Below, piece after piece: positions 28,313 through 42,673 of a stretch of 64,000 nt of DNA. A program made the translations under genes and the position numbers. The first letter of the stretch is position 1. The number at the start of each line of letters is the position of its first letter. The notes below the pieces were generated by a model. That model saw only the letters and a program-made list of their open reading frames with translations, had not been told where the DNA came from and did no database searches. The stretch is from an uncultured Desulfobulbus sp. (GTDB taxonomy: Bacteria > Desulfobacterota > Desulfobulbia > Desulfobulbales > Desulfobulbaceae). Location of the stretch: NCBI RefSeq assembly GCF_963665445.1, contig NZ_OY762276.1:900001-964000 (forward strand), given 5' to 3'.

Positions 28313-28334
28313 CATTATGCATATCTCGCACAAA

Positions 28335-28877
28335 ATGAACGGTGCAGGCGATCGGCCGAATACGGTCATCCTTGGCTGCGGCAATGTCCTTTTGGGGGAC
28401 GACGGCTTTGGCCCGGCAGTGATCGAACGGCTGCTGCAACATGGATTGCCCGGTACGGTGCAGGCCATTGATGTCGGCACTTCGGTCCGTGAATACCTGT
28501 TGGATTGCCTCATGGCGCCCGAGCTTCGCCCCTCCCACCTGGTGGTGGCGGATGCCGCCTACCGCGAAGGATTGCAGCCGGGAGAACTCCTGCTCTGCCG
28601 GCCGGCCGATCTGCCCCTGTGCAAGGTGCACGACTTTTCCCTGCACCAGTTTCCCACGGTCAATTTGCTGGCGGAGCTGGAGGCGGAAACTGCCATCGAG
28701 GTTGTCTTGGTTTTGGCCCAGGCCGCCACCCTGCCCGAGGCGATCGCACCGGGGCTTACCCCGGTGATGATTCGTGCCGTGGAGACGGCCACCGAGATGA
28801 TACTGCAACGAATTGAGCAAGATGTCACCCCTTTTTCCACCGGCACGGATGATGCCGCCGCGGAGTGTGTTTCATGA
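28335..28877 (+). CDS. Hydrogenase maturation endopeptidase (HyaD/HycI family)
   Basis: The 180-residue protease trims the C-terminus of a [NiFe] hydrogenase large subunit after nickel insertion. The signature VILGCGNVLLGDDGFGPAV (about 10-28) includes the Asp/Glu-type nickel-sensing residue region of this family. Further segments are AIDVGTSVREYLLD and VVADAAY (about 50-85) with the second conserved acidic residue, and VHDFSLHQFP (about 98-107). The start at 28335 is chosen because it places the GCGN motif at the usual distance; an ATG at 28317 is also in frame, and neither has a strong ribosome site. As the first gene of the hydrogenase cluster it should process MvhA downstream. Confidence 0.85.
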   Translation: MNGAGDRPNTVILGCGNVLLGDDGFGPAVIERLLQHGLPGTVQAIDVGTSVREYLLDCLMAPELRPSHLVVADAAYREGLQPGELLLCRPADLPLCKVHDFSLHQFPTVNLLAELEAETAIEVVLVLAQAATLPEAIAPGLTPVMIRAVETATEMILQRIEQDVTPFSTGTDDAAAECVS

Positions 28878-30346
28878 TATATGAGGCCAAGGTCAATGAT
28901 TTGGCCGATGAATTCGGTGTCCATCGCAATACCATCCGTAACTGGATCAACTCCGGTGTTCTACCGGCCCAGGAGGGGCCCGGGCGCCGATACCTGATCC
29001 AGTGGGAGGACTACAAACGGCTGTGCGACAAGTACGGACGGGAGCCGCGGATCTCACCGGATCCGGGTGTTGCCGGCGAGACCGCCCAACCCGCGGCGGT
29101 CAATGCACCCAATGCGGTGCGCCTGGAGCAAAAGCACAACCCGCTCTATACCGCCCCCCTGCTGGCTGATATCTGCCTCACCTGCGGTTCCTGCGCCGGG
29201 GCCTGCCCCATCTCCGGGGTCGATGACCTTGACCCGCGCAAGATCATCCGCATGGCCTTTTTCGGCATGGAAGAGGAGCTGGTGGAGAGCGACTGGCCCT
29301 GGAAGTGCACCATGTGCGGCAAGTGTGAAGTGGTCTGCCCGATGAATGTGGAGATCCTCCAGCTGATACGCCGCATCCGTGCCCGCCGCGACCGCGACAA
29401 GGTGCCGGCCGCCATTCAGAAGGGGGTGATCACCTGTCTGGAAAAGGGCAACAACCTCGGCATTCCCAAGGATGATTTCCTCGGCCTGGTCAAGGACCTC
29501 GGCCAGGAACTCTCCGACGACTGCTGCCCCGGCTTCGTCACCCCGATCGATGTCCGCGGTGCCCGCATGCTGGTGACGATCAACTCCAAGCTGCCCTTTG
29601 CCGAGCCGGACACCCTGACCTGGTGGTGGAAGATTTTTTACGCCGCCGGCGAATCCTGGACCATCTCTTCAGAGTATTGGGAAGGCGTCAATTGGGCCCT
29701 GCATTCAGGCGATTACAACGCGATGCGCACCATCGTCAAGCGTATCATCGACAATATCGAGCGGCTCAACTGCAAGGCCCTGCTCCTGCCGGAATGCGGC
29801 CATGCCTACTACGCCACCCGTTTTGCCCTGGAACGTTGGTTTCCCGAATCCCTGCAGCAATTCAAGGTCTACACCGTCTTTGACCTGCTGCTGGAGTATA
29901 TCAACCAGCGGCGGATCATTCTCGATCCCTCCCGCAACAGCAAGCTGACCACCTTTCACGACTCCTGCAATTACGGCCGTAAATCGTTGAAAACCTTTGG
30001 TCATGGCTATTTTGACGAGGCCCGTACCCTGACCCGGGCCTGTTGTGCCAACTATGTGGATCTGATTCCCGATCGGGAGGAAAATTACTGCTGCGGTGCC
30101 GGCGGCGGTGCCTGGGCCTCCCCCTTTGGTGCGGAACGGGTCTTTCACGGACGGATGAAGGCACGCCAGATCAGTGCCTCCGGGGCAAAGGTGGTGGTCA
30201 CCGCCTGTCAGAACTGCCGCGATCAACTGCAGGTGTCGCTGGCACGCGAATTCAACCTCAACATAGAGGTCATGTTTTTATGGGAGCTGGTGGCGAAATC
30301 ACTGATTATGCCCAAGCGTATCGTCGGAGAGGTGCAGCATGGCTGA
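28874..30346 (+). CDS. HTH-HdrD fusion: helix-turn-helix plus heterodisulfide-reductase-like Fe-S protein
   Basis: This 490-residue protein joins two modules. The N-terminal part (about 1-60; KVNDLADEFGVHRNTIRNWI, then GRRYLIQWEDYKRL) looks like an excisionase/MerR-type winged HTH. After a flexible linker (60-90) come two ferredoxin-type [4Fe-4S] sites, C101/C104/C107/C111 and C145/C148/C151/C155. A CCG-type domain follows, with ECGHAYYATR (degenerate half), HDSCNYG, EENYCCGAGGG and TACQNC. The Fe-S half matches HdrD/DsrK-like subunits that reduce a disulfide or pass electrons. ATG at 28874 overlaps the protease stop. It could be a redox-gated DNA-binding protein or simply a Hdr subunit with an adapted HTH-like cap. 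Confidence 0.8.
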   Translation: MIYEAKVNDLADEFGVHRNTIRNWINSGVLPAQEGPGRRYLIQWEDYKRLCDKYGREPRISPDPGVAGETAQPAAVNAPNAVRLEQKHNPLYTAPLLADICLTCGSCAGACPISGVDDLDPRKIIRMAFFGMEEELVESDWPWKCTMCGKCEVVCPMNVEILQLIRRIRARRDRDKVPAAIQKGVITCLEKGNNLGIPKDDFLGLVKDLGQELSDDCCPGFVTPIDVRGARMLVTINSKLPFAEPDTLTWWWKIFYAAGESWTISSEYWEGVNWALHSGDYNAMRTIVKRIIDNIERLNCKALLLPECGHAYYATRFALERWFPESLQQFKVYTVFDLLLEYINQRRIILDPSRNSKLTTFHDSCNYGRKSLKTFGHGYFDEARTLTRACCANYVDLIPDREENYCCGAGGGAWASPFGAERVFHGRMKARQISASGAKVVVTACQNCRDQLQVSLAREFNLNIEVMFLWELVAKSLIMPKRIVGEVQHG

Positions 30347-33300
30347 TCAGTCCATGAACGGCTCGGTCCTGGTGGTGGGCGGCGGGATCTCAGGTATGCA
30401 GGCCGCGCTTGACCTGGCCGACTCGGGATTTTTTGTCTATCTGGTGGAGAAATCCGGGGCCATCGGCGGTTCCATGCCCCAGTTCAACAAGGTTTTTCCC
30501 ACCAACGACTGCTCGATGTGCATCATCGCGCCCAAGCTGGTTGAATGCGGCCGCCATCCCAATATTCGCATCATGACCCTGTCCACGGTGCAGGACGTGA
30601 CCGGGACCGCCGGCAACTTCACCGTACGGGTGATCGAGCATCCCCGCTATGTGGATATGAACAAGTGCATCGCCTGCGGGCAGTGCACCGGCGTCTGCCC
30701 CAAGAGCGTGGACGACTCGTTCAACTCCAACATCGCCAAAAGAAAGGCGATCTACATCAAGTACCCGCAGGCGGTGCCGCTCAAGTACCAGATCGATGCC
30801 CAGGCCTGTATCCACCTGAAGAATCCGGGCAAATGCGGTGCCTGCGCCGAAATCTGCCCGCCCGGGGCGATCGACTTCAACGACCGGGAACGCGAGCACA
30901 TCATTCAGGTGGGCTCGGTGGTCATGGCCCTGGGCTTTCAGACCTTCGACCCTTCCAAGGCCAAGGTCTGGGGCTACGGGGTCTATCCCAACGTGATCAC
31001 CTCGCTCCAGTTCGAGCGTTATCTTTCGCCCGACGGCCCCACCGACGGTCTGCTCACCCGTCCTTCGGACCGCAAACCGGTGCGGAAGGTGGCCTTTTTG
31101 CAGTGCATCGGCAGCCGCGACAAGAACCGCTGCAACAACGAGTACTGCTCCACGGTCTGCTGCATGTATGCCATCAAGGAGGCCATGACCATCAAGGAGA
31201 CCAATCCGGAGCTTGAGGTCTCCATCTTTTACATGGATATGCGGACCCCGGGCAAGGAGTTCGACCGCTACTTTGAACGGGCGAAAAACGAGTACGGGGT
31301 GCGTTTCATCCGTTCGCGCATCCATGGCGTCGAACCCAAGGGGACCAAGGGCGATCTGCGCCTGCACTACATCAACGGCCAGGGCAAGCAGGTCGAGGAG
31401 GTGGTGGATCTGGTGGTGCTCTCGGTGGGGCTGGAGACACCGAATTCCATGGTGCGTCTTGCAGAGCGGATCGGCATTCACATGACCCCGGACCGCTTTG
31501 CCTCGATTTCCGCCTTCATGCCGGTGCACACCTCCAAGCGGGGCGTCTTTACCTGTGGGGCCTTTAACGGTCCGCGCGATATCCCCCAATCGGTGACCGG
31601 CGGTTCGGCGGCGGCAGCCAGTGTTTCCGCGTTGCTGACCTCGGTCCGTCACACCCAGACCCGCTCCCTGCTGCCGCCGGTTGAACAGGATGTCAGCAGT
31701 GAAGCGCCGCGTATCGGGGTCTTTGTCTGCCACTGCGGGACCAATATCGCCGGAGTGGTCGATGTGGAGGATGTGGCCGCCTATGCCGCCACCCTGCCCA
31801 ACGTGGTCCATGTGGCGCGCAACCTCTTCACCTGCGCCCAGGATACCCAGGATCGCATCGTCCAGGAGATCCAGGACAAGCGACTCAACCGCATCGTGGT
31901 TGCGGCCTGCACGCCGCGGACCCACGAACCGCTGTTTCGTAAGACGCTCAAATCGGCCGGGATCAACGAATACCTGATCGAGATGGCCAATATCCGCAAC
32001 CAGAATTCCTGGGTCCATAATCAGGAACCCGAGGTGGCCACGGAAAAGGCCAAGGACCTGGTGCGAATGGCAGTGGTCAAGGTCCAGACTCAGGTAGCCC
32101 GCAAGCCGCTCAAAATTCAGATAGCGCCTTCGGTGCTGATCATCGGCGGCGGTGTCGCCGGCATGACCGCGGCCCTCAACCTGGCGGATCAGGGCTTTCA
32201 GGTGCACCTGGTGGAGAAGACCACCCAGTTGGGCGGCAACGCGCTTCATCTCTTTCAGACCTGGAACGGCGAGCATGTGCCCCGGTTTCTGAAGGACCTC
32301 AAGGAACGGGTCCAGCAGCATCCCCTGATCGAGGTCGCCTACACCAGCACCGTGCTCGCGGTGGACGGCCATGTGGGCAATTTCTCCAGTACCATTCGCA
32401 CCGGCTCCAGCCGCAAACGGGTGATCAACCACGGGGCGGTGATCATCACCACCGGCGCTAAACGCTACATCCCCGAGGAATTCGAATACGGCAAGATTCC
32501 CAAGGTGGTGGCCTCGATCGAGTTCGACAAACTGCACATGCACAACGAGACCCGGGTGGCCAACGGCAAGTCCTTTGTGTTCATCCAGTGCGTGGGCTCG
32601 CGCAACCAGGAGCGGCCCTACTGTTCCAAATCCTGCTGCACCCACTCGATTCAGAGCGCGATCAAGCTGAAGAAGGAGGCCCCCTCGCGCCAGATCTACA
32701 TCCTCTACCGCGAGATTCGCACCTACGGCCAGCGTGAGCGCATCTACAATCAGGCGAGAGAGCTTGGGATCGTCTTTATCAACTACGAAATGCACGGGCC
32801 GCCCCAGATCAAAAAGGCGGACAACGGGGTCTTGGTCGAGGTCTGGGACCATGTGCTCCATCGGCCCCTGGAGATCAAGGCGGATGTGGTCATCCTCGCC
32901 GCCGCCACCCTGGCCAGCCCGGATGCGATGAACCTGGCCAATCTGTTCAAGATCCCACTCAACGGCGACGGTTTTTTCCAGGAGGCCCATGTCAAGTTGC
33001 GGCCGGTGGAGTTCAATGTCGACGGCGTCTTTGTCGCCGGCCTGGCCCACTATCCCAAGCCGCTCGAGGAATCGATCTCGCAGGCGCTTGCCGCCGCGGC
33101 CAAGGCAGGCCGTCTCCTGGCCCGCCAGGAGATCAATCTCGAACCCAACACCGCCCTGGTCGATCCGGTCAACTGCGACGGTTGCGGACTCTGCATCGAG
33201 GTCTGTCCCTACCAGGCCATCACCCTGGTGGAGTACACGGCTGAGGACGGCACGCCCCTGAAGACTGTCAACATCGATCCGGTGCTGTGCAAGGGGTGCG

Positions 33301-33422
33301 GCATCTGTCAGGGCACCTGTCCCAAACGGGGGGTGGATGTGGCCGGGTTCACCTATGCCCAGCTCGAGGCCCAGATCGACGCCGCGCTTGAGGAGAGCAG
33401 TCCGGTGGAGGAGAAGATATGA
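30339..33422 (+). CDS. hdrA: HdrA-like flavoprotein with two FAD modules, 1027 residues
   Basis: The protein contains a first FAD module (about 1-445; VVGGGISGMQAALDLADSG at 12-30). That module carries Fe-S ligands C110/C113/C116/C120 and C157/C166/C169/C173. A classical HdrA follows: N-terminal domain with IGVFVCHCGTNIAGVVDVED (about 459-478), FAD domain from IIGGGVAGMT (about 601), and two C-terminal ferredoxin motifs, CDGCGLCIEVCP and CKGCGICQGTCP. HdrA is the flavin-bifurcating core of methanogen Hdr-Mvh complexes and takes electrons through MvhD. The double-module form is known from some sulfate reducers. The ATG overlaps the HTH-HdrD stop and its end overlaps mvhD, so the complex is translationally coupled. 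No HdrB or HdrC gene is present. Confidence 0.9.
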   Translation: MADQSMNGSVLVVGGGISGMQAALDLADSGFFVYLVEKSGAIGGSMPQFNKVFPTNDCSMCIIAPKLVECGRHPNIRIMTLSTVQDVTGTAGNFTVRVIEHPRYVDMNKCIACGQCTGVCPKSVDDSFNSNIAKRKAIYIKYPQAVPLKYQIDAQACIHLKNPGKCGACAEICPPGAIDFNDREREHIIQVGSVVMALGFQTFDPSKAKVWGYGVYPNVITSLQFERYLSPDGPTDGLLTRPSDRKPVRKVAFLQCIGSRDKNRCNNEYCSTVCCMYAIKEAMTIKETNPELEVSIFYMDMRTPGKEFDRYFERAKNEYGVRFIRSRIHGVEPKGTKGDLRLHYINGQGKQVEEVVDLVVLSVGLETPNSMVRLAERIGIHMTPDRFASISAFMPVHTSKRGVFTCGAFNGPRDIPQSVTGGSAAAASVSALLTSVRHTQTRSLLPPVEQDVSSEAPRIGVFVCHCGTNIAGVVDVEDVAAYAATLPNVVHVARNLFTCAQDTQDRIVQEIQDKRLNRIVVAACTPRTHEPLFRKTLKSAGINEYLIEMANIRNQNSWVHNQEPEVATEKAKDLVRMAVVKVQTQVARKPLKIQIAPSVLIIGGGVAGMTAALNLADQGFQVHLVEKTTQLGGNALHLFQTWNGEHVPRFLKDLKERVQQHPLIEVAYTSTVLAVDGHVGNFSSTIRTGSSRKRVINHGAVIITTGAKRYIPEEFEYGKIPKVVASIEFDKLHMHNETRVANGKSFVFIQCVGSRNQERPYCSKSCCTHSIQSAIKLKKEAPSRQIYILYREIRTYGQRERIYNQARELGIVFINYEMHGPPQIKKADNGVLVEVWDHVLHRPLEIKADVVILAAATLASPDAMNLANLFKIPLNGDGFFQEAHVKLRPVEFNVDGVFVAGLAHYPKPLEESISQALAAAAKAGRLLARQEINLEPNTALVDPVNCDGCGLCIEVCPYQAITLVEYTAEDGTPLKTVNIDPVLCKGCGICQGTCPKRGVDVAGFTYAQLEAQIDAALEESSPVEEKI

Positions 33423-33850
33423 GCAATACCCCGAAAATTATCGCCTTCTGCTGCAACTGGTGTTCCTATGCGGCAGCGGATCTCGCCGGCATCTCGCGAC
33501 TGCAGTATCCCGGATCGGTGCGCATCATTCGCGTGATGTGTTCGGGCATGGTCCATCCGGAGATGGTCCTGCACGCACTCAACAGGGGGGCTGAAGGGGT
33601 GATGATCATCGGCTGTCATCTGGGCGAGTGCCACTACATCAACGGTAACGAGCTGGCACTGGCGCGGGCGGAGGTGATCGCCGATACCCTGGAGGATCTG
33701 GGGTTTGAGAGTGAGCGGTTCCAGATCACCTGGGTCTCCTCGGCGGAACCGGAACGGCTGGCCGAGGCCTTCCGCGCCTTTTGCGGCCGTCTGGCCATCC
33801 TTCGCGGCGAGCAGGCCGAAATCACATCCACAGGGGCTGGCAAGTCTTGA
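33419..33850 (+). CDS. mvhD: MvhD/FlpD-type [2Fe-2S] electron-transfer subunit
   Basis: The 143-residue subunit carries electrons between the hydrogenase and HdrA. Cys residues of the family are in FCCNWCSYAAADLAG (about 10-24), then VMCSGMVHPEM (about 39-49) and GCHLGECHY (about 65-73). The domain ends near 128 with a short extra tail. Its start overlaps the hdrA stop by 4 bp and its end overlaps the TTG start of mvhG, a compact unit typical of Mvh loci. Length and Cys pattern are complete for the family. Confidence 0.93.
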   Translation: MSNTPKIIAFCCNWCSYAAADLAGISRLQYPGSVRIIRVMCSGMVHPEMVLHALNRGAEGVMIIGCHLGECHYINGNELALARAEVIADTLEDLGFESERFQITWVSSAEPERLAEAFRAFCGRLAILRGEQAEITSTGAGKS

Positions 33851-34764
33851 CTCGGCCGCGGCTCAGCTTCGAATGGCTTCACGCCTGCTGCGGCTGCGAG
33901 ATTTCCCTGATCGATTCGGGGGCCTCGCTCATCGACCTGCTTGCCCGGGTGGAGGTGGTCCATTTCCCGCTGATCATGGACCACAAGTACCGGTCGGGCC
34001 AGGGTACGGAGCCCTTCGGGCTGCCCGAGGCCGATATCGGCGTGGTCTCAGGGGGGGTGGCCTCGGAGGAGCAGCTGGAGCTCGCCCTGGCGATGCGCAA
34101 AAGCTGTCGTGTGCTCGTGGCCCTGGGGACCTGCGCCACCCATGGCGGGATTCCTGCGATGCGCAACGAGTGGCCTGCAGGGGATATGCTGCGGACGGTC
34201 TATGCCTACGGCTCAGACGAGTTGGCCCTGGTTCCGGCGGAGATCTCGCCATCGCTTGACCGGGTGTACAGCGTGGATGAAAAGGTCAAGGTCGACTGCC
34301 TGGTGCCGGGATGCCCCCCGGCGGCAGGGATCATTGTCGAGGTGCTGAGCGGGCTGGTGGAAAATCGCGGGCTGCCTGCGAGCGGCAAAAGCGTGTGCGA
34401 GACCTGTCCCACCAGGCGAGGCGCCAAGGGGCAGGGGGGCGTGGCCCGCTTTCTCGCCAACATCGAGGGCGATCCCCAGGCACCGCTCGCCGAAATGACT
34501 TGCCTGCTTGAACAGGGCATTCTCTGTCAGGGGCCGGTCACCGCCGGGGGCTGCGGAGGCAAGGGGGCGCCGCTCTGCTTGCAGGCACGGGTGCCCTGCC
34601 GCGGTTGTTATGGACCGGTGCGCAGGGACAGCAACCCATTGTTGGATATGCTCAGTGCCCTGGCCAGCAACGGTATCGACTACCGGACAATGGTCGACCG
34701 AAAATCCCTGCTCCGATTCAGCGGGGCCCATGGAATGCTCAAACCGCTGCGCAAGCGTGGTTGA
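33847..34764 (+). CDS. mvhG: MvhG-type hydrogenase small subunit
   Basis: A 305-residue hydrogenase small subunit that carries Fe-S clusters from the active site to MvhD. The proximal-cluster region WLHACCGCEISLIDSG (about 10-25) and ALGTCATHGGIP (about 96-107) are clear, followed by LVPGCPPAAGIIVEVL. Later cysteines are in VCETCPTRRGAKG, GPVTAGGCGGKGAPLCLQA and PCRGCYGPVRRD. Start is a TTG at 33847 overlapping the mvhD stop; GGGG lies upstream. No signal or Tat motif is present, so the enzyme is cytosolic. A copy of the dispersed 99-bp repeat separates it from mvhA. Confidence 0.9.
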   Translation: MTRPRLSFEWLHACCGCEISLIDSGASLIDLLARVEVVHFPLIMDHKYRSGQGTEPFGLPEADIGVVSGGVASEEQLELALAMRKSCRVLVALGTCATHGGIPAMRNEWPAGDMLRTVYAYGSDELALVPAEISPSLDRVYSVDEKVKVDCLVPGCPPAAGIIVEVLSGLVENRGLPASGKSVCETCPTRRGAKGQGGVARFLANIEGDPQAPLAEMTCLLEQGILCQGPVTAGGCGGKGAPLCLQARVPCRGCYGPVRRDSNPLLDMLSALASNGIDYRTMVDRKSLLRFSGAHGMLKPLRKRG

Positions 34765-34902: not shown

Positions 34903-36348
34903 ATGTCTGAGGTTATTTCAATTCATCCGGTGACCCGCATAGAGGGGCACGCCCGCATCGATGTGCATCTGGACGAATCCGGCCGGGTGCGCGACACCCG
35001 GGTCGCCATCTCGGCGCTGCGCGGCTTTGAGCAGTTTGTCATCGGGCGTCCGGCCGAGGAAATTCCCCGGATCGTCACCCGCATCTGCGGCATCTGCCCC
35101 TGGATGCACCATCTGGCTGCGGTCAAGGCCGTTGACGGTTGCTTCGGGGTGCAGCCGAGCGCAAGCGGCACTCTTTTGCGCGAGCTCTGCCAGGTCCTGG
35201 CCCACATCCACGACAAGATCCTCCACTTTTTCTTCCTTGCCGCCCCGGATTTTGTCCTTGACCCCCAGACCGATCTCTCGGTGCGCAACATCATGGGGTT
35301 GGTGCGCAAGGAGCCCGAGTTGGCCAGGCAGGTGGTGGCCATGCGGCAGTTGGCGCAGCAGATGCTTGCCCGATTTTCCGGCAAGGCGATTCATCCGGTC
35401 GCGGCGGTTGTGGGCGGTTTTTCCAAGCCCATGTTCGAGGAGGAGCGGCAGGCCCTGTTGGTCGATGCGCGCAACCTGCTCGATTTTGCCTGTTACGCGC
35501 TGGAGTTTGCCAAAAAACAGGCCTTTGGCCGCCTGGTCAACGAATTTGACGGGCTCGGAGCGATTACCACCGGGTTTCTCGGCACGGTGGACGCCAAGGG
35601 ACGACTGCGGCTCTATGAGGGTAACCTGCGCTTGATGGAGGCTGGCGGCGAGTTTGTCGACTTTCCCGCCCAAGACTATGAACAGTACCTGGCCGAGCAC
35701 GTCGAACCCTGGTCCTCGGCGAAAATGGTCTATGCCAAGTGCTGGGGCGAGGGGTTTTCCCTCAATCCCGACAATCCCAGCGGCGTGTACCGGGTCAACA
35801 CCCTGGCGCGGTTGAATGTCTGCGAATCCATGGCAACCCCCAGGGCCCAGGCCGAACTGGAGGAGTTTCGCCGCCATTTCGGACGTCCGGCCCAGGCCAC
35901 CATGCTCTATCACTGGGCGCGGCTGATCGAGTTGGTCTATGCCTGCGAGCGCAGCGTCGAACTGCTCGGGGAAAGGGGGATCGTCGACCCCCGTGTGCGC
36001 AGTGCGGTTCAACCGGGAGCGGGGCGGGGCATCGGCCACGTCGAGGCCCCGCGCGGCACCCTGATCCATGATTTTAGTACCGACGAAAACGGCTGTATCA
36101 CCAGGGCCAATCTGATCGTCGGCACCACCCACAACATCGCCCCGATGAATTTGAGCGTCCACCGGGCGGCGGCCGCGCTGATCAGCGACGGGGCGGCGGA
36201 TGATGCCCTGCTCAACCGAATCGAAATGGCGATGCGGGCCTATGACCCGTGAATTTCCTGTGCAACGCACCGCCTGGATGGCGGGCTTCCATTGACCCTG
36301 AACCTGATCGACCATTGCGGTCACCCCATTCGCATCCTTCACCAATAA
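34903..36348 (+). CDS. mvhA: Selenocysteine-containing MvhA-type [NiFeSe] hydrogenase large subunit
   Basis: The frame reads 449 residues to a UGA at 36250-36252, then continues in the same frame to TAA at 36346. Translated with Sec at codon 450, the end is D-P-U-I-S-C-A-T-H plus 25 more residues. This is exactly the second metal-binding motif (DPCxxCxxH) with its first Cys replaced by Sec; the first motif RICGICPWMHH (Cys62, Cys65) is normal. Without readthrough the protein would lack half the nickel ligands, so the UGA is probably recoded. The C-terminal extension after the His is where a maturation protease cuts. Start has AAGGAAGGACG upstream. The group is most like cytosolic Mvh/Vhu (3c). 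Confidence 0.9.
36270..36284 (+). promoter_or_regulatory. Candidate bacterial SECIS hairpin
   Basis: Directly 3' of the UGA, CCGCC (36270-36274) pairs with GGCGG (36280-36284) around the loop TGGAT. The stem begins 17 bases after the UGA, within the range used by bacterial SECIS elements, and the loop holds a GG that could be a SelB contact. Sequence alone cannot prove function. Confidence 0.5.
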
Positions 36349-36381
36349 GAGGGGCGTGATTTTTCGTCTTGATTTTTGCCT

Positions 36382-36636
36382 ATGAATACCAACAATGATG
36401 AGCATTCCCGTAAAGTCGTCCGGGTGGAAGCGCCCAACTGCGCCTGTGGATTTGTCGGTCATATGACCGCCGATGAGCTCAAACAGCGGGCCGCCCACGA
36501 CGATATGGACCTCTCCTGTCCGGTCTGCGGCCTGATCCATCTCAGTCGTGAGGAAATCGAGGACCTGGAAAAGCAGAAGGTGGTCAATTCCAAGCGTTAC
36601 CGGGAAATTTTACGGCAGGCCAACGCGGATATTTAA
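36382..36636 (+). CDS. Small zinc-ribbon-like protein in the hydrogenase operon
   Basis: An 84-residue protein with NCACGF (about 20-25) and SCPVCGLIHL (about 50-59). Four Cys residues in two pairs suggest one zinc or metal site. The last 25 residues are helical and charged. It is not recognised by family. It lies between mvhA and hypF, which suggests a role in hydrogenase assembly or regulation, but no experimental relative is known to me. The ATG at 36382 has no close Shine-Dalgarno, and a TTG at 36376 is an alternative. Downstream 36637-36816 shows no ORF or clear promoter. Confidence 0.5.
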   Translation: MNTNNDEHSRKVVRVEAPNCACGFVGHMTADELKQRAAHDDMDLSCPVCGLIHLSREEIEDLEKQKVVNSKRYREILRQANADI

Positions 36637-36816
36637 CAAGAGTTGTTGCGAGATTACCAGGTTGTCTTGTTTGTGCCAATTGAGCCGATTGTACAGCGTT
36701 GAAAAAATGTGGTGTAAATGGCAACTTGCTGCTAGAGTGGCCCGCAGATCGGCAAGTATCCATTATTCAACTGGTGCTCCCCTCCTAACCTGTATGAGAA
36801 CTGCTTGAGCCGGACC

Positions 36817-39126
36817 ATGCATTCAACAATCCTTGAAACCGTGACCCTGCGGATCAGTGTGCGTGGTATTGTGCAAGGCGTGGGCTTCCGTCCCTTTGTC
36901 TACCGTTTGGCCCATGCACTGAATCTGGTCGGAACGGTCATCAACGACGGCGATGGGGTCGAGATTCTTGTGGCTGGTCCGGAATCAGAGGTGCAGTCCT
37001 TTGCCCGCAGGCTCCCCCGGGAGGTGCCACCGGCGGCCCGCATCGTCGAGTTGGCGGTGGAGACCGTGGACACAGTCCTGGAAGGCGACAGCTTTACCAT
37101 TCTCCCCAGTCGAACCAGCCCTCGTCCCTCGACCCAGATCGCCCCGGACATGAGCATCTGCACCGACTGCATGGCGGAAATCCTCGATCCAGCCAACCGC
37201 CGCCACCGTTACCCCTTTACCAACTGCACCAACTGCGGTCCCCGTTTTTCCATCGTTGAACGTATCCCCTATGACCGTCCCAATACCTCGATGCGGGTCT
37301 TTGCCATGTGTGAGGACTGTAGGAGGGAGTATGACGATCCCCTAGACAGACGCTTTCATGCGCAACCAAACGCCTGTCCGGTCTGTGGACCGCAGCTGAG
37401 TTGGCATGACGCCAAGGGGGCGGTCATCGACGGCGACTGCCTTGCCAATGCTGCCCGCGCGCTGGCCGAGGGCAGGGTGGTGGCCATCAAGGGGTTGGGC
37501 GGTTTTCATCTGGCTGTTGACGGTTGCAACGAGGCCGCGGTGCAACGTTTGCGCGAGCGCAAGCACCGGCCGGCCAAACCGCTGGCGATCATGGTCAGGG
37601 ATCTTGAATGTGCCCGCCGCTTTTGCCGTATCTCCCCGGCAGAGGCGGAGTTGCTGCAGTCGGCCGAACATCCGATTGTCCTGGTTGATCGGCTCTCCGA
37701 ATCCTCGATTGCCCGGTCGGTTGCCCCGGGGCTCGATGTGATCGGTCTGATGCTGCCCTACACGCCGCTGCATGTTCTTCTCCTGGGTGACCCCGATGGC
37801 CCCGAGGTCCTGGTGATGACCAGCGGCAACAGGGGGGGCGAGCCGATCTGCACCGGCAACGAGGAGGCGCTTTGCCGCCTGCAGGGCCTGGCCGATTTTT
37901 TTCTTTTTCATAACAGGGATATCGTTACCCGGGTCGATGACTCCGTGGCTCGTGTCATGGACGGCAAGGTCCGCCTGTTGCGCAGGGCCCGCGGCTATTC
38001 GCCGGTGCCGATACAGCTGACTCAGCCCACCGAGGAGATTATTGGCTGCGGCGGCGAGATGAAAAATTCCTTTTGCATCGTCCGCAGCCGCGAGGCCTAT
38101 CTCAGTCAGCATATCGGCGAGTTGGTCAACACGGAGAATTTTGATTTTTACCGGGAGAGTATCGATCATCTTCAAGCCGTGCTCGAGCTGGTTCCGGACA
38201 AGGCTGCCTGCGATCTCCACCCCGACTATCTAAGCACCCGCCATGCCCGCGGGCGGGGCGGGGAGTGGTGCAGCGTGCAGCACCACCACGCCCATATCGG
38301 AGCGGTGCTCGCCGAGGGGCGGGTCAACGGCCCCGTGCTCGGCCTGGTGCTCGACGGCACCGGACTCGGCCCCGATGGTTCGGTCTTTGGCGGGGAACTG
38401 TACCTCGCTGATCGGACCGGGTACACCCGATTGGGCTACCTCGCCACCCTCGATCTGCCCGGAGGCGACCGGGCGGCGGTTGAACCCTGGCGCATGGCCA
38501 TGAGCCTGTTGTATACTTGCCTGGGACCTGCGGCCTTTCAAGCGGACAACCAGCCGCCATCCCTGCGCGGCGTCGAACAGGCCCGCCAGCAACTGCTGGC
38601 CCAGATGCTTGTCAAGAAGATGAACTGTCCGCCCACTTCGAGCTGCGGCCGGCTCTTTGATGGAATCTCGGCCCTGCTGGGCCTCTGCCTGGTCAGTCAG
38701 TACGAGGGGCAGGCGGCCATGCTGCTGGAGCAGCAGGCCGGCCTGGCAGACGATGCTCTCGCCGGTGATCGCTATCCGCTTGCCTTCAGCGACGTTGACG
38801 GCCAGCTCTGTATCGGAGTGGATGCAATGGTGGCAGGGCTGCTTGCCGATATCCGGCACAAGGTGCCTGTTGCGGTCATGGCACGCGCCTTTCATCTCTG
38901 GCTGGCAGCATCGCTTACGGCGGCCCTTGTGCAGCTGCGGTCAACCCATGGGATCGACCAGGTGGTGCTTGCCGGCGGCTGCATGCAGAATAAATTGTTG
39001 TTTGAACGGCTCTGTACGTCTCTGCGGGAACACGGTTTTACCGTGCATGCCGGGGAACTGGTGCCGATGAATGATGGTGGCCTAGCCCTGGGGCAGGCCT
39101 ATATAGGAGGTTTTTCATGTGTTTAG
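36817..39126 (+). CDS. hypF: Carbamoyltransferase HypF
   Basis: A 769-residue HypF that makes the cyanide ligand of the NiFe centre from carbamoyl phosphate. Domains in order are: acylphosphatase (about 1-95, RGIVQGVGFRPFVYRLA); a double zinc finger with CTDC, CTNCGP, CEDC and CPVCGP (about 105-195); a YrdC-like domain (about 200-385); and a Kae1-like domain (about 400-769, with HHHAHIGAVLAEG and GLVLDGTGLG). The end of the gene overlaps hypC. The ATG at 36817 is preferred; a TTG at 36805 is in frame. Length is normal. Confidence 0.95.
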   Translation: MHSTILETVTLRISVRGIVQGVGFRPFVYRLAHALNLVGTVINDGDGVEILVAGPESEVQSFARRLPREVPPAARIVELAVETVDTVLEGDSFTILPSRTSPRPSTQIAPDMSICTDCMAEILDPANRRHRYPFTNCTNCGPRFSIVERIPYDRPNTSMRVFAMCEDCRREYDDPLDRRFHAQPNACPVCGPQLSWHDAKGAVIDGDCLANAARALAEGRVVAIKGLGGFHLAVDGCNEAAVQRLRERKHRPAKPLAIMVRDLECARRFCRISPAEAELLQSAEHPIVLVDRLSESSIARSVAPGLDVIGLMLPYTPLHVLLLGDPDGPEVLVMTSGNRGGEPICTGNEEALCRLQGLADFFLFHNRDIVTRVDDSVARVMDGKVRLLRRARGYSPVPIQLTQPTEEIIGCGGEMKNSFCIVRSREAYLSQHIGELVNTENFDFYRESIDHLQAVLELVPDKAACDLHPDYLSTRHARGRGGEWCSVQHHHAHIGAVLAEGRVNGPVLGLVLDGTGLGPDGSVFGGELYLADRTGYTRLGYLATLDLPGGDRAAVEPWRMAMSLLYTCLGPAAFQADNQPPSLRGVEQARQQLLAQMLVKKMNCPPTSSCGRLFDGISALLGLCLVSQYEGQAAMLLEQQAGLADDALAGDRYPLAFSDVDGQLCIGVDAMVAGLLADIRHKVPVAVMARAFHLWLAASLTAALVQLRSTHGIDQVVLAGGCMQNKLLFERLCTSLREHGFTVHAGELVPMNDGGLALGQAYIGGFSCV

Positions 39127-39395
39127 CCATTCCCATGCAGGTGGTGGAACTGCGCGGCGGCAGCGATGAGCTGCTCGATCCCCAGGTCGCCCTGGTCGAG
39201 AGCGACGGTGTCCGCAAGGAGATCCGTCTCGAGATGGCCGATCGGGTGCCGGAGGTCGGGGACTATGTGATTATTCATGCCGGTTTTGCCATCCGCACCC
39301 TTTCCGAGGAGGAGGCGGAGATCAATCTCAGCCTGATGCGGCAGATGGCCGAGGCCCTGGAACGGGAAGGCCGCCTGCCCGGAGCACCTGAATGA
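39117..39395 (+). CDS. hypC: Hydrogenase assembly chaperone HypC
   Basis: The 92-residue HypC/HupF chaperone carries the Fe(CN)2CO unit with HypD. The essential N-terminal Cys is in MCLAIPMQVVEL, and the central VGDYVIIHAGFAI (about 42-55) forms the OB-like core. A GGAGG lies upstream of the ATG within the last codons of hypF. The gene overlaps hypD by 4 bp. It is slightly longer than typical HypC at the C-terminus. Confidence 0.95.
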   Translation: MCLAIPMQVVELRGGSDELLDPQVALVESDGVRKEIRLEMADRVPEVGDYVIIHAGFAIRTLSEEEAEINLSLMRQMAEALEREGRLPGAPE

Positions 39396-40519
39396 AGTGT
39401 GCCGATGAGTTCCGCTCCAAGGCGGTGACCGCGCCGCTGGTGGAGGAGATCACCCGCACCATGGTCAAGCCTTTGCGGATCATGGAGGTCTGCGGAACGC
39501 ACACCATGTCGATCTTTCGCCATGGCATCCGCAGCCTGCTGCCCGAGGGGATCACCCTGCTCTCCGGACCGGGCTGTCCGGTCTGCGTCACCCCGGCGGA
39601 TCATATCGATGCCTTCTTGGCGGCGGCCGAGCGCCCGGAGGTGACCATCGCCACCTTTGGTGATCTCATCCGCGTGCCGGGCAGTCACGGCTCCCTGGCC
39701 ACTGCCAGGGCCCAGGGGGCACGGGTGGAGATCGTCTACTCGCCCATGGACGCCCTGGTGCTGGCGAAAAAGGAACCGGAGCGGATCGTCCTTTTTCCGG
39801 CGATCGGTTTCGAGACCACGGTGCCGACCATTGCCGCCACCATTGTCCAGGCCGAACGTTTGGGGATCGATAATTTCGTGATTATCGCCGCCTGCAAGAC
39901 CATGCCCAACGCCCTCGAGGCACTCATGGCCGATCCCGAGCTGCAGATCGACGGCCTGCTTTGCCCCGGCCATGTCAGCGCCATCATCGGCGCGAACGCC
40001 TATCTGCCCTTTGCCCAGAAGCACAAACTGGCCTGCGCCGTCGCCGGTTTTGAACCGGCCGATATCCTCGCCGGGCTGTTGAGCCTGATGCGCCAGATCA
40101 ATGCGAACGAACCCCGGGTGGACAACTGCTATACCAGGGCCGTCACTGCCGAGGGAAACTGCAATGCGCAAAGGTTGATCGACCAGGTGTTTCAACCTGC
40201 GGACAGCCCCTGGCGCGGACTGGGCATCATTCCCGGCAGCGGCCTTGTGTTGCGAGAGCAGTATCAGCGCTTTGACGCCATGACCCGGCTCGATCTTGCG
40301 GTGGCCCCTGCCGAGGAACCCAAGGGCTGCCGCTGCGGCGATATTCTCAAAGGCCGGCTCCTGCCGCCGGACTGCCCGCTCTACGGCACCGCCTGCACGC
40401 CGCTCAAGCCGGTCGGCCCCTGTATGGTCTCCAACGAAGGTACCTGCGCCGCCTACTACCGCTACAGCGGCCAGAAACGACGAACACAGCAGGCGGTTTC
40501 ATCGTCCAAACCCAGATAA
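39392..40519 (+). CDS. hypD: Hydrogenase maturation protein HypD
   Basis: HypD is the scaffold on which the Fe(CN)2CO moiety is built, working with HypC and HypE. The 375-residue protein shows IMEVCGTHTMSIFRHGI (about 30-46), GPGCPVCVTP (about 62-71), the CN-transfer loop and a [4Fe-4S] binding C-terminus with CRCGDIL (about 310), CPLYGTACTP and GPCMVSNEGTCAAYYRY. It overlaps hypC by 4 bp. Length and motifs are complete. The C-terminal ~15 residues are extra and basic. Confidence 0.95.
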   Translation: MKCADEFRSKAVTAPLVEEITRTMVKPLRIMEVCGTHTMSIFRHGIRSLLPEGITLLSGPGCPVCVTPADHIDAFLAAAERPEVTIATFGDLIRVPGSHGSLATARAQGARVEIVYSPMDALVLAKKEPERIVLFPAIGFETTVPTIAATIVQAERLGIDNFVIIAACKTMPNALEALMADPELQIDGLLCPGHVSAIIGANAYLPFAQKHKLACAVAGFEPADILAGLLSLMRQINANEPRVDNCYTRAVTAEGNCNAQRLIDQVFQPADSPWRGLGIIPGSGLVLREQYQRFDAMTRLDLAVAPAEEPKGCRCGDILKGRLLPPDCPLYGTACTPLKPVGPCMVSNEGTCAAYYRYSGQKRRTQQAVSSSKPR

Positions 40520-40526
40520 GGATCCT

Positions 40527-41543
40527 ATGAACCCAGACTCGATTATCAGCCTTGACCACGGCAGCGGCGGACTCGCCAGCCAGAACCTGATCAGTGGCCT
40601 GTTTCTCAGGTATTTTCGTTCGCCGCAGCTGCATGATCTGGAAGACTGCGCCATGCTTGGCGAATATGCCGGTCGCATTGCCTTTTCCACCGACAGCTAC
40701 GTGGTGGATCCACTCTTCTTTGCGGGCGGGGATATCGGCAAACTGGCCGTGCACGGCACCATCAACGATCTGGCCATGCGCGGTGCCCGGCCCATAGCCC
40801 TGAGTCTGGCCCTGATTATCGAGGAAGGGTTTCCCTTCGCCGACCTGGAACGGGTGATCGCCTCGGTGGCGCAGTGTTCCGAAGAGGCGGGGGTGGCCAT
40901 CGTCACCGGTGACACCAAGGTCGTGCCCAGGGGCAAGGTGGACAAGATCTTCGTCAACACCACCGGGGTGGGGATTGCCTCGCATCGCCACGACATCTCC
41001 GGTAAGAAGGCAATGCCGGGCGATGCGGTCATCGTCTCCGGTACCCTTGCCGACCACGGCATCACCATCATGAGCGCCCAGGCGGGCATCGCCATTGACG
41101 GCGATATCAAAAGCGACACCCAACCCCTGCACCGCCTGGTGGCGGCCATTTTGGAAGAAGATATGGGTGACGTCCACGTCTTGCGCGATCCGACCCGCGG
41201 CGGTCTGGCCACCACCCTCTGTGAAATTGCCCGCTCCTCGGGGGTGGATATCGTTCTTGAGGAGGAGCGGCTGCCCATTCGGCCTGCTGTCAACACCGCC
41301 TGCGAGATGATCGGCCTGGACCCGCTCTACCTGGCCAACGAGGGCAAGATGATCGTCATCTGCGATCGCGACGTGGCCGAGGAGACGCTGCAGCTGCTCA
41401 GGCGGCTGCCCGAGGGGCGGGATGCCGCCCTTGTGGGCTGGGTTGGCGAGCGCAGCGAGGGCCGGCTCAGCCTGACCACGCGCATCGGCGGTTCGCGTCT
41501 GCTCGAACCGCTCACCGGCCATCCCCTGCCGCGTATCTGTTAA
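40527..41543 (+). CDS. hypE: Hydrogenase maturation protein HypE
   Basis: HypE dehydrates the thiocarboxamide formed by HypF to a thiocyanate on its C-terminal Cys. The 338-residue protein starts ISLDHGSGG, has PurM-like ATP-binding domains with DPTRGGLATTL (about 215-225), and ends PRIC, the essential Cys at the very C-terminus. The start at 40527 has AAGGATC upstream. It lies 7 bp after hypD. All expected features are in place. Confidence 0.95.
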   Translation: MNPDSIISLDHGSGGLASQNLISGLFLRYFRSPQLHDLEDCAMLGEYAGRIAFSTDSYVVDPLFFAGGDIGKLAVHGTINDLAMRGARPIALSLALIIEEGFPFADLERVIASVAQCSEEAGVAIVTGDTKVVPRGKVDKIFVNTTGVGIASHRHDISGKKAMPGDAVIVSGTLADHGITIMSAQAGIAIDGDIKSDTQPLHRLVAAILEEDMGDVHVLRDPTRGGLATTLCEIARSSGVDIVLEEERLPIRPAVNTACEMIGLDPLYLANEGKMIVICDRDVAEETLQLLRRLPEGRDAALVGWVGERSEGRLSLTTRIGGSRLLEPLTGHPLPRIC

Positions 41544-41571: not shown

Positions 41572-41958
41572 ATGCATGAACTCTCACTTGCGCAAAGCCT
41601 GCTTGACCAGTTGCTGGGATTGGCCCGGGAACACCAGGCAGAGCGCGTTACCCGGGTATCGGTCACCATTGGTCCGTTCTCCGGGATCGTCCGCGACTCC
41701 TTTGAGTTTGGCTTCAACATTCTCAAGGAATCCACGCCCCAGACCAAGGATGCGGTCCTGGATGTGGAAACACCGGATCCGGTCTATGTCTGCCTGGACT
41801 GCAACAAGGTGTCGGTGATTCCCTTTGCTCAAGCGGGAGAATCGGAGGAGATGGTCCTTGGCGGCGGTTATCCGAAGAAGTGCCCCTGGTGCTGTCTCAA
41901 CCGGCTCTCTCCCAAGGGGGGAACCGAACTCATATTGAATCAAGTAGAAATGGAGTAG
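41572..41958 (+). CDS. hypA: Nickel metallochaperone HypA
   Basis: HypA binds nickel through His2 and hands it to the hydrogenase large subunit with HypB. The 128-residue protein begins MHELSLAQSLLDQL, with CLDC (about 73-76) and CPWC (about 104-107) forming the structural zinc site. It is somewhat longer than E. coli HypA because of an insertion between the two Cys pairs (FAQAGESEEMVLGGGYPKK) and a short tail. Start and context in the hypF-C-D-E-A-B order are clear. Confidence 0.95.
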   Translation: MHELSLAQSLLDQLLGLAREHQAERVTRVSVTIGPFSGIVRDSFEFGFNILKESTPQTKDAVLDVETPDPVYVCLDCNKVSVIPFAQAGESEEMVLGGGYPKKCPWCCLNRLSPKGGTELILNQVEME

Positions 41959-41962
41959 AACC

Positions 41963-42673
41963 ATGTGTGATACCTGCGGCTGTCAACTGCACGAACACCA
42001 CCAGCACGACACCAAGGTGGTCGAGGTCAACCGGAGCCTGTTGGAGGCCAACCAGAAACAGGCCCATTCCAACCGGCATCATATCGAGTCCATGGGCGCC
42101 CTGGCCATCAACATGATTTCCAGCCCCGGCTCGGGTAAGACCACCCTGCTCGAACGGACCATAGAAGTGCTCAAGGACACGGTCAAGATCGGCGTCATCG
42201 AGGGGGATATCGAGACCGAGCGCGACGCCGACCGCATCCGCTCCAAGGGCATTCCCGCGGTCCAGTTGACCACCGGCGGCGCCTGCCACCTCGATGCGCC
42301 CATGGTCCATGGCGGCCTCCATGTGCTCGAGCATTTTGCCAAGGGCCAGGGCTACGATCTGATCTTCATCGAGAACGTGGGCAATTTGGTGTGTCCGTCC
42401 ACCTTCGACCTGGGCGAACACCGGCGGGTGATTCTGCTCTCCGTGCCCGAGGGCTCCGACAAGCCGGCGAAGTACCCGGCCACTTTCCGCGGTGCAGACC
42501 TGGTGCTGATCACCAAGACGGACCTCTTGCCCCATTTTGATTTTTCGCTGGAAGAGGCCAGAAAGGAGAGCGAGACGCTCAAGCCCGGTGTGCCGATCAT
42601 TGAGTTGTCCTCAACCACCGGCGACGGTTTTGAGCAGTGGATCGATTACCTCAAGCAGATGCTGGCGAAGTAA
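41963..42673 (+). CDS. hypB: Nickel incorporation GTPase HypB
   Basis: HypB hydrolyses GTP to insert nickel into the large subunit. The 236-residue protein begins MCDTCGCQLHEHHQHD, a Cys and His-rich metal-binding N-terminus. The GTPase core has P-loop SSPGSGKTT (about 53-61), switch GDIETERD, and ITKTDLLPHF. It overlaps no gene but starts 4 bp after hypA. It is the last gene of the hydrogenase cluster and is followed by a strong terminator. Confidence 0.95.
   Translation: MCDTCGCQLHEHHQHDTKVVEVNRSLLEANQKQAHSNRHHIESMGALAINMISSPGSGKTTLLERTIEVLKDTVKIGVIEGDIETERDADRIRSKGIPAVQLTTGGACHLDAPMVHGGLHVLEHFAKGQGYDLIFIENVGNLVCPSTFDLGEHRRVILLSVPEGSDKPAKYPATFRGADLVLITKTDLLPHFDFSLEEARKESETLKPGVPIIELSSTTGDGFEQWIDYLKQMLAK

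Follow-up and report, generated by a model that had tools for sequence, protein, structure and literature searches.

Probable selenocysteine at the nickel site of a Desulfobulbus Mvh-type hydrogenase whose operon partners carry cysteine

The mvhA operon

We examined a window of 64,000 nucleotides, positions 900001-964000 of the single-contig genome (5,081,812 bases) of an uncultured Desulfobulbus. Within the window, mvhA is clustered with the genes for MvhG, MvhD and HdrA, and five genes follow the order glpC-hdrA-frhD-frhG-frhA (Table 1). Upstream of mvhA lie genes for a protease, a GlpC/HdrBC-like protein, HdrA2, MvhD and MvhG, and downstream those for HypF, C, D, E, A and B.

Table 1. Features of the mvhA region, with positions counted from the first base of the window
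Feature	Position	Strand	Basis or remark
Hydrogenase maturation protease (HycI/FrhD-like)	about 28332..28877	+	Pfam HycI, E 9e-16; NCBIfam hydrog_prot, frhD; start codon uncertain
GlpC/HmcF/DsrK-like Fe-S protein, CCG domain, N-terminal helix-turn-helix	28865..30346	+	Cys at relatives' Sec site 311
Tandem HdrA2-like flavoprotein	30339..33422	+	Cys at relatives' Sec site 61
MvhD	33419..33850	+	Pfam FlpD, E 6e-50; Cys at relatives' Sec site 66
MvhG small subunit	33781..34764	+	Oxidored_q6, VhuG-like; start codon uncertain
mvhA, [NiFeSe] hydrogenase large subunit	34903..36348	+	481 residues if UGA is Sec
UGA codon, predicted Sec450 and terminal Ni ligand in DPUISCATH	36250..36252	+	TGA conserved in orthologues
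SECIS-like hairpin CCGCC-UGGAU-GGCGG	36270..36284	+	Starts 17 nt after UGA; covariation, synonymous-codon null
MvhA C-terminal tail after His456, 25 residues	36271..36345	+	Translation; cleavage inferred from family
hypF	36805..39126	+	Pfam
hypC	39117..39395	+	Pfam
hypD	39392..40519	+	Pfam
hypE	about 40527..41543	+	Pfam
hypA	41572..41958	+	Pfam
hypB	41963..42673	+	Pfam

The mvhA frame runs for 449 residues to its single in-frame TGA, continues through ISCATH into a tail of the letters RLDGGLPLTLNLIDHCGHPIRILHQ, and closes at TAA 36346-36348. The nickel-site ligands C62 and C65 (the N-terminal CxxC) and C453 are intact, and residue 450, at the UGA, is the predicted U450. A standard gene caller ends the open reading frame (ORF) at the TGA, so that under standard gene calling the enzyme is shortened before an active-site ligand. 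The ORF after mvhA begins at 36376 (TTG) or 36382 (ATG), 3' of the TAA. By Pfam and NCBIfam, MvhA belongs to the nickel-dependent hydrogenases, with VhuA as the nearest model; at 424.4 bits against an equivalog cut-off of 800 it is a relative of VhuA and no equivalog by that model. A profile of 22 MvhA orthologues matches the MvhA of structure 5odc (E 6e-137), whose DPCLSCATH aligns to DPUISCATH.

These results agree with a sequence-only reading of this DNA, which had placed the UGA on the first Cys position of the C-terminal nickel motif, followed by a 25-residue tail and TAA, had described the other ligands as intact and the next gene as respecting the longer end, and had predicted truncation by a gene caller. 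The kinship with selenocysteine (Sec) Mvh/Vhu hydrogenases that it proposed is correct, and the homologue alignment that it suggested as a check puts the 5odc Ni motif on DPUISCATH. Its statements that the operon has a maturation protease and all Hyp factors, and that the hydrogenase is joined to an Hdr-like module, were likewise borne out, the former by Pfam identification of HycI and the six Hyp proteins and the latter by the presence of HdrA2, the GlpC/HdrBC-like protein and MvhD in the same cluster.

Two smaller observations concern the neighbouring genes. The GlpC-like protein opens with an HTH_17 helix-turn-helix (window 28865-29020), which is odd for an electron-transfer subunit, and a small Cys-containing ORF (36376-36636) between mvhA and hypF has no match in NCBIfam (E 0.001) or Pfam (E 1e-6).

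Operons of this type have been described before. A glpC-hdrA-frhD-frhG-frhA operon, with GlpC, HdrA, FrhD and FrhA as selenoproteins, is described in passages of a 2006 paper for the Deltaproteobacteria Syntrophobacter fumaroxidans and Desulfotalea psychrophila (PMC1794560). The window shares with it all five genes and their order, a Sec-type large subunit (there FrhA) and a duplicated HdrA; it differs in having Cys in GlpC, HdrA and MvhD, where GlpC, HdrA and FrhD are selenoproteins in the published operon. Parts of PMC13188914 treat both this operon and the methanogen MvhA/VhuA/VhuU proteins with UxxC; the window MvhA resembles the latter in having UxxC in the C-terminal Ni motif, but it forms one uninterrupted subunit, and a hairpin of the bacterial type comes immediately after its UGA. 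Sections of PMC2702500 describe a cytoplasmic, Sec-containing MvhA2DG with HdrA1 in Desulfobacterium autotrophicum, which is like the window in that a sulfate reducer has a Sec-containing Mvh clustered with HdrA, and unlike it in that HdrA1 is a selenoprotein; as to which Mvh subunit carries the Sec, several MvhD are listed. An mvhADG set beside hdr and Sec synthesis genes is mentioned in PMC7117923.

Conservation of the UGA and the selenocysteine machinery

Searching 55 related genomes with the read-through MvhA gave matches in 34. All 22 genes at 63% identity or above, our own included, contain one TGA each, at the same codon. The next matches in these genomes (43% identity or below) are mostly stop-free, and three distant ones (28-34% identity) contain a stop (TGA in G035 and G052, TAA in G040). 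We also scanned the contigs of named genomes, where 569 stretches were confirmed and the best 80 of these kept; one of the two scan patterns includes Cys and would be biased towards Cys-type genes. Together with fetched stretches and the window itself this gave 102 loci, among which the MvhA site is TGA in all 75 covered loci at 50% identity or above, or 73 of 73 when two repeats are left out (L168 repeats L082, and L163 repeats L125; both are excluded from the two trees and the hairpin set below and included in the four-site reading).

Since the same codon is TGA in 22/22 orthologues and in 75/75 covered loci listed, chance is an unlikely origin, and we reject truncation or a sequencing error. 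The sequence-only reading had named two findings that would count against it, a sense codon in close homologues together with signs that the UGA is a sequencing error or nonfunctional stop, and a genome lacking sel genes. On the first, the 75 covered loci listed all have TGA; as for the second, the genome carries selA (613 bits), selB (369 bits, the only one above cut-off), selD (359 bits, itself with one in-frame TGA) and a tRNA-Sec gene (anticodon UCA, 70.6 bits).

A SECIS-like hairpin follows the UGA

The five-base-pair stem after the UGA was compared in 73 distinct sequences among the loci listed, with loop UGGAU in 48 and UGGAC in 25. At pair 1, 63 sequences have C-G and 10 have U-A; at pair 2, 71 have C-G, one has U-A and one is broken; pair 3 is G-C in 67, A-U in five and G-U in one; pair 4 is C-G in 70, U-G in two and broken in one; and pair 5 is C-G throughout. 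The stem thus shows two-sided compensatory changes. The U-A form of pair 1 couples a His codon that is altered silently with a Gly codon whose amino acid changes, a combination that selection on the RNA would be expected to leave.

As a null for folding energy, we drew 30 sets of synonymous codons with the usage of the window gene. Over the 73 sequences the energy averages -10.4 kcal/mol, compared with -5.7 (sd 0.28) for the null; when eight sequences were taken one by one, a share of 0 to 0.112 of the nulls reached the strength of the hairpin. As a control, 37 loci yielded 34 Cys-type motifs, whose mean of -2.5 against a null of -2.1 shows no comparable excess, two of them being low when taken singly (0.013 and 0.017). 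The window stretch alone is unexceptional against dinucleotide shuffles (z of -0.73, -1.27 and 0.04 at three lengths), and Rfam reports no family in the window at gathering scores. As a candidate SECIS-like element the hairpin is therefore convincing by comparison, not by single-sequence folding.

Proposed function of the enzyme

Because the genome has the sel machinery, the stem covaries, every covered close orthologue listed has the TGA and the tail is conserved, the mvhA UGA is almost certainly read as Sec. MvhA is very probably the large subunit of a cytoplasmic [NiFeSe] hydrogenase of the Mvh/Vhu kind, with Sec450 inserted through SelB and the hairpin, and probably part of a bifurcating Hdr complex. 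SelB carrying Sec-tRNA-Sec would be expected to act on the hairpin, placing Sec450 as a terminal Ni ligand, and translation would continue through ISCATH and the tail to the TAA. The Hyp proteins would build the NiFe site, and, from what is known of the family, the HycI/FrhD-type protease would be expected to cut MvhA after His456. On the same grounds, electrons would pass from MvhA through MvhG, MvhD and the tandem HdrA to the GlpC/HdrBC-like protein, in an Hdr-linked complex that is probably flavin-based and bifurcating.

For the last step a different outcome is conceivable. HdrA2 and MvhD have an established role in MvhADG-HdrABC complexes, and here an HdrA2-like flavoprotein and MvhD stand beside the hydrogenase genes as they do there; yet one GlpC/HmcF/DsrK-like protein, which also carries an HTH domain, stands in for the HdrB/HdrC part. 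It is possible, if somewhat doubtful, that Sec is inserted and that electrons from H2 reach GlpC or a DsrC-like disulfide via Hdr with ferredoxin left unreduced.

The same genome encodes two Cys-type Mvh-like large subunits at 39% identity (G000:C1:4268773-4270215 and 2759586-2760980), possibly selenium-free back-ups.

A second UGA-reading tRNA

Outside the window, the genome carries a second tRNA-Sec-like gene with anticodon UCA (G000:C1:2290278-2290370, or L183:4278-4375; 53.7 bits). We read 16 stretches with second-type genes, our own genome included. Eleven of them, all from Desulfobulbus, share the body GACTGG...CCAGTC and U73 (11/11), with an encoded CCA in 6/11. Among the others, L197 also ends in U73, L195 and L196 have A1-U72 with U73, L189 has G73 and an altered 5' arm, and the L198 gene is interrupted by a contig end. 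ARAGORN assigns the anticodon UCA in L002. The consensus fold has 8 and 4 pairs, and ARAGORN draws 7/5 or 8/4 depending on the genome; the tRNA-Cys known as selC* features a modified 8/4 structure with a bulged A51a.

In the portions of PMC7609411 and PMC5330540 that bear on identity, U73 is a Cys identity element and serylation of tRNA-Sec needs G73. The former, a review, also describes selC* tRNA-Cys, accompanied by a second selB in Syntrophobacterales and Desulfobacterales. Our second tRNA is like selC* in its tRNA-Sec-like body, UCA anticodon and U73, and unlike it in having G1-C72; it looks like a tRNA-Cys of the selC* type. A plain extra tRNA-Sec we reject, given U73 in 11/11 second-type genes against G73-CCA in 25/26 primary tRNA-Sec genes (the pattern matched 26 of 31 loci, and the 26th looks like a pattern mismatch). 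Among the papers listed on selC and tRNACys in Desulfobulbus, no title or abstract opening treats this tRNA.

Candidate partners of the second tRNA were also considered. Our genome shows one selB above cut-off and no second one (selB*) above it, and no selB or cysS was recognised by eye among the ORFs beside the second tRNA. A conserved neighbourhood was rejected: a coaD-like ORF (named by eye) lies near the tRNA in 3/7 loci listed, and the other ORFs differ. The genome has two CysRS genes, a normal cysS and, outside the window, a fusion of cysteine synthase-like PLP and CysRS-like parts (G000:C1:3945749-3948073, or L200:583-2910; 775 aa), whose KMSKS-like stretch looks altered by eye. We rejected this fusion as a CysRS* dedicated to the second tRNA, as it occurs in 48 of 55 relatives (at an E of 1e-120 or better), and many of these lack a second tRNA.

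The second tRNA raises the prospect that a SECIS-programmed UGA in Desulfobulbus is served by two tRNAs, with Sec delivered by tRNA-Sec and, under selenium shortage, Cys by the selC*-like tRNA-Cys(UCA), carried by the only SelB, to give a [NiFeSe] or a [NiFe] enzyme. Its distribution in the genus leans that way, the gene being present in 10/16 genomes with Sec-mvhA against 1/7 without (p 0.069) and, among 90%-complete genomes, in 8/11 against 0/4 (p 0.026), both values being uncorrected for kinship and genome size; in D. alkaliphilus it adjoins the hyp genes, 6.6 kb from Sec-mvhA. Against this, 6/16 Sec-mvhA genomes have no detected second tRNA, two of them being 99-100% complete (G005 and G009), the single SelB may reject Cys-tRNA, and the two Cys-type Mvh paralogues could serve at low selenium. 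We regard such dual decoding as unlikely.

Far less probable is decoding of the UGA solely as Cys by the selC*-like tRNA, which would yield an ordinary [NiFe] hydrogenase: the second tRNA is present in the genome, but the same UGA also stands in orthologues whose genomes showed only a G73-type or a single tRNA-Sec, and selA and selD are kept. That the UGA is a real stop, as the gene caller has it, leaving a protein that ends at Pro449 and a hydrogenase that is inactive or a pseudogene, is scarcely credible with the TGA at one codon in all 75 covered loci listed, frame, ligands and tail preserved beyond it, and a covarying hairpin behind it.

Selenocysteine and cysteine at four sites of the operon

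Reading the UGA as Sec places MvhA 450 beside three further Sec sites of related operons, GlpC 311, HdrA 61 and MvhD 66, and we read all four in the 75 loci (from the 102 that include the best 80 of 569). The window has TGC, TGC and TGT at the three partner sites, that is, Cys at each. Among the loci listed, 28/75 have Sec at all four sites. In the order GlpC, HdrA, MvhD, MvhA, the pattern Cys-Cys-Cys-Sec is found in 14/75 (12 without the two repeats), all of them Desulfobulbus; Sec-Sec-Cys-Sec in 4/75 (L098, L103, L124 and L127); and Ser-Cys-Cys-Sec in 1/75 (L105, Desulfocapsaceae MO_192.B14). In the remaining 28/75, at least one of the GlpC, HdrA and MvhD sites is uncovered or unaligned. The HdrA codes of L097, L175 and L181 were excluded, as their alignments (36-37%) fall on a different stretch, probably in the other half of HdrA.

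GlpC 311 in L105 is Ser (TCC), where other covered loci have Sec or Cys. L133, from a Chloroflexota metagenome-assembled genome, has an in-frame TGA at the HdrA Sec site and Cys in MvhA, the reverse of the window pattern. L130 (59% identity) has Cys in HdrA and could be an exception to the retention of Sec in MvhA, its contig ending before that site.

Of the 83 rows in the MvhA tree, the 16 from Desulfobulbus group together (99/98) inside the Sec clade; 'Candidatus Desulfobulbus rimicarensis' (L084) falls outside this group and is excluded from our use of the genus name. In a quick HdrA tree (59 rows), whose outgroup rows are long and gappy, the 13 rows from Desulfobulbus all have Cys and cluster together (SH-aLRT 100) among Sec branches, with surrounding supports of 86 to 99. 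The simplest reading, which the trees favour, is that GlpC, HdrA and MvhD of Desulfobulbus changed from Sec to Cys and MvhA kept Sec. The partner subunits thus seem to have traded an ancestral Sec for Cys, leaving the Ni-bound Sec of MvhA as the sole one of the four that appears to be retained in the Desulfobulbus cluster. A Sec operon of this type is already known; what is added here is Cys at three partner sites in Desulfobulbus where these are covered, with MvhA keeping Sec, a Cys-Cys-Cys-Sec pattern that no title or abstract opening treats among the papers listed on Desulfobulbus Sec hydrogenases.

As cited in PMC9961374, a natural [NiFeSe] hydrogenase in which Cys takes the place of Sec incorporates less Ni, produces less H2 and tolerates O2 less well, and such harm would explain why MvhA retains its Sec. 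Across sulfate reducers, the four Sec sites of this one operon amount to a natural experiment, in which electron-transfer subunits seem to have swapped Sec for Cys in more than one lineage and the Ni-bound Sec was kept in 75/75 covered loci listed; comparing the four sites offers a way to test what advantage Sec brings at Ni. The second UGA-reading tRNA poses the question of what residue enters at the UGA under selenium scarcity. Should two tRNAs indeed serve one UGA, the loss of Sec from three subunits would mark a lineage that is leaving its dependence on Sec, with the single position where Sec counts most holding it back.
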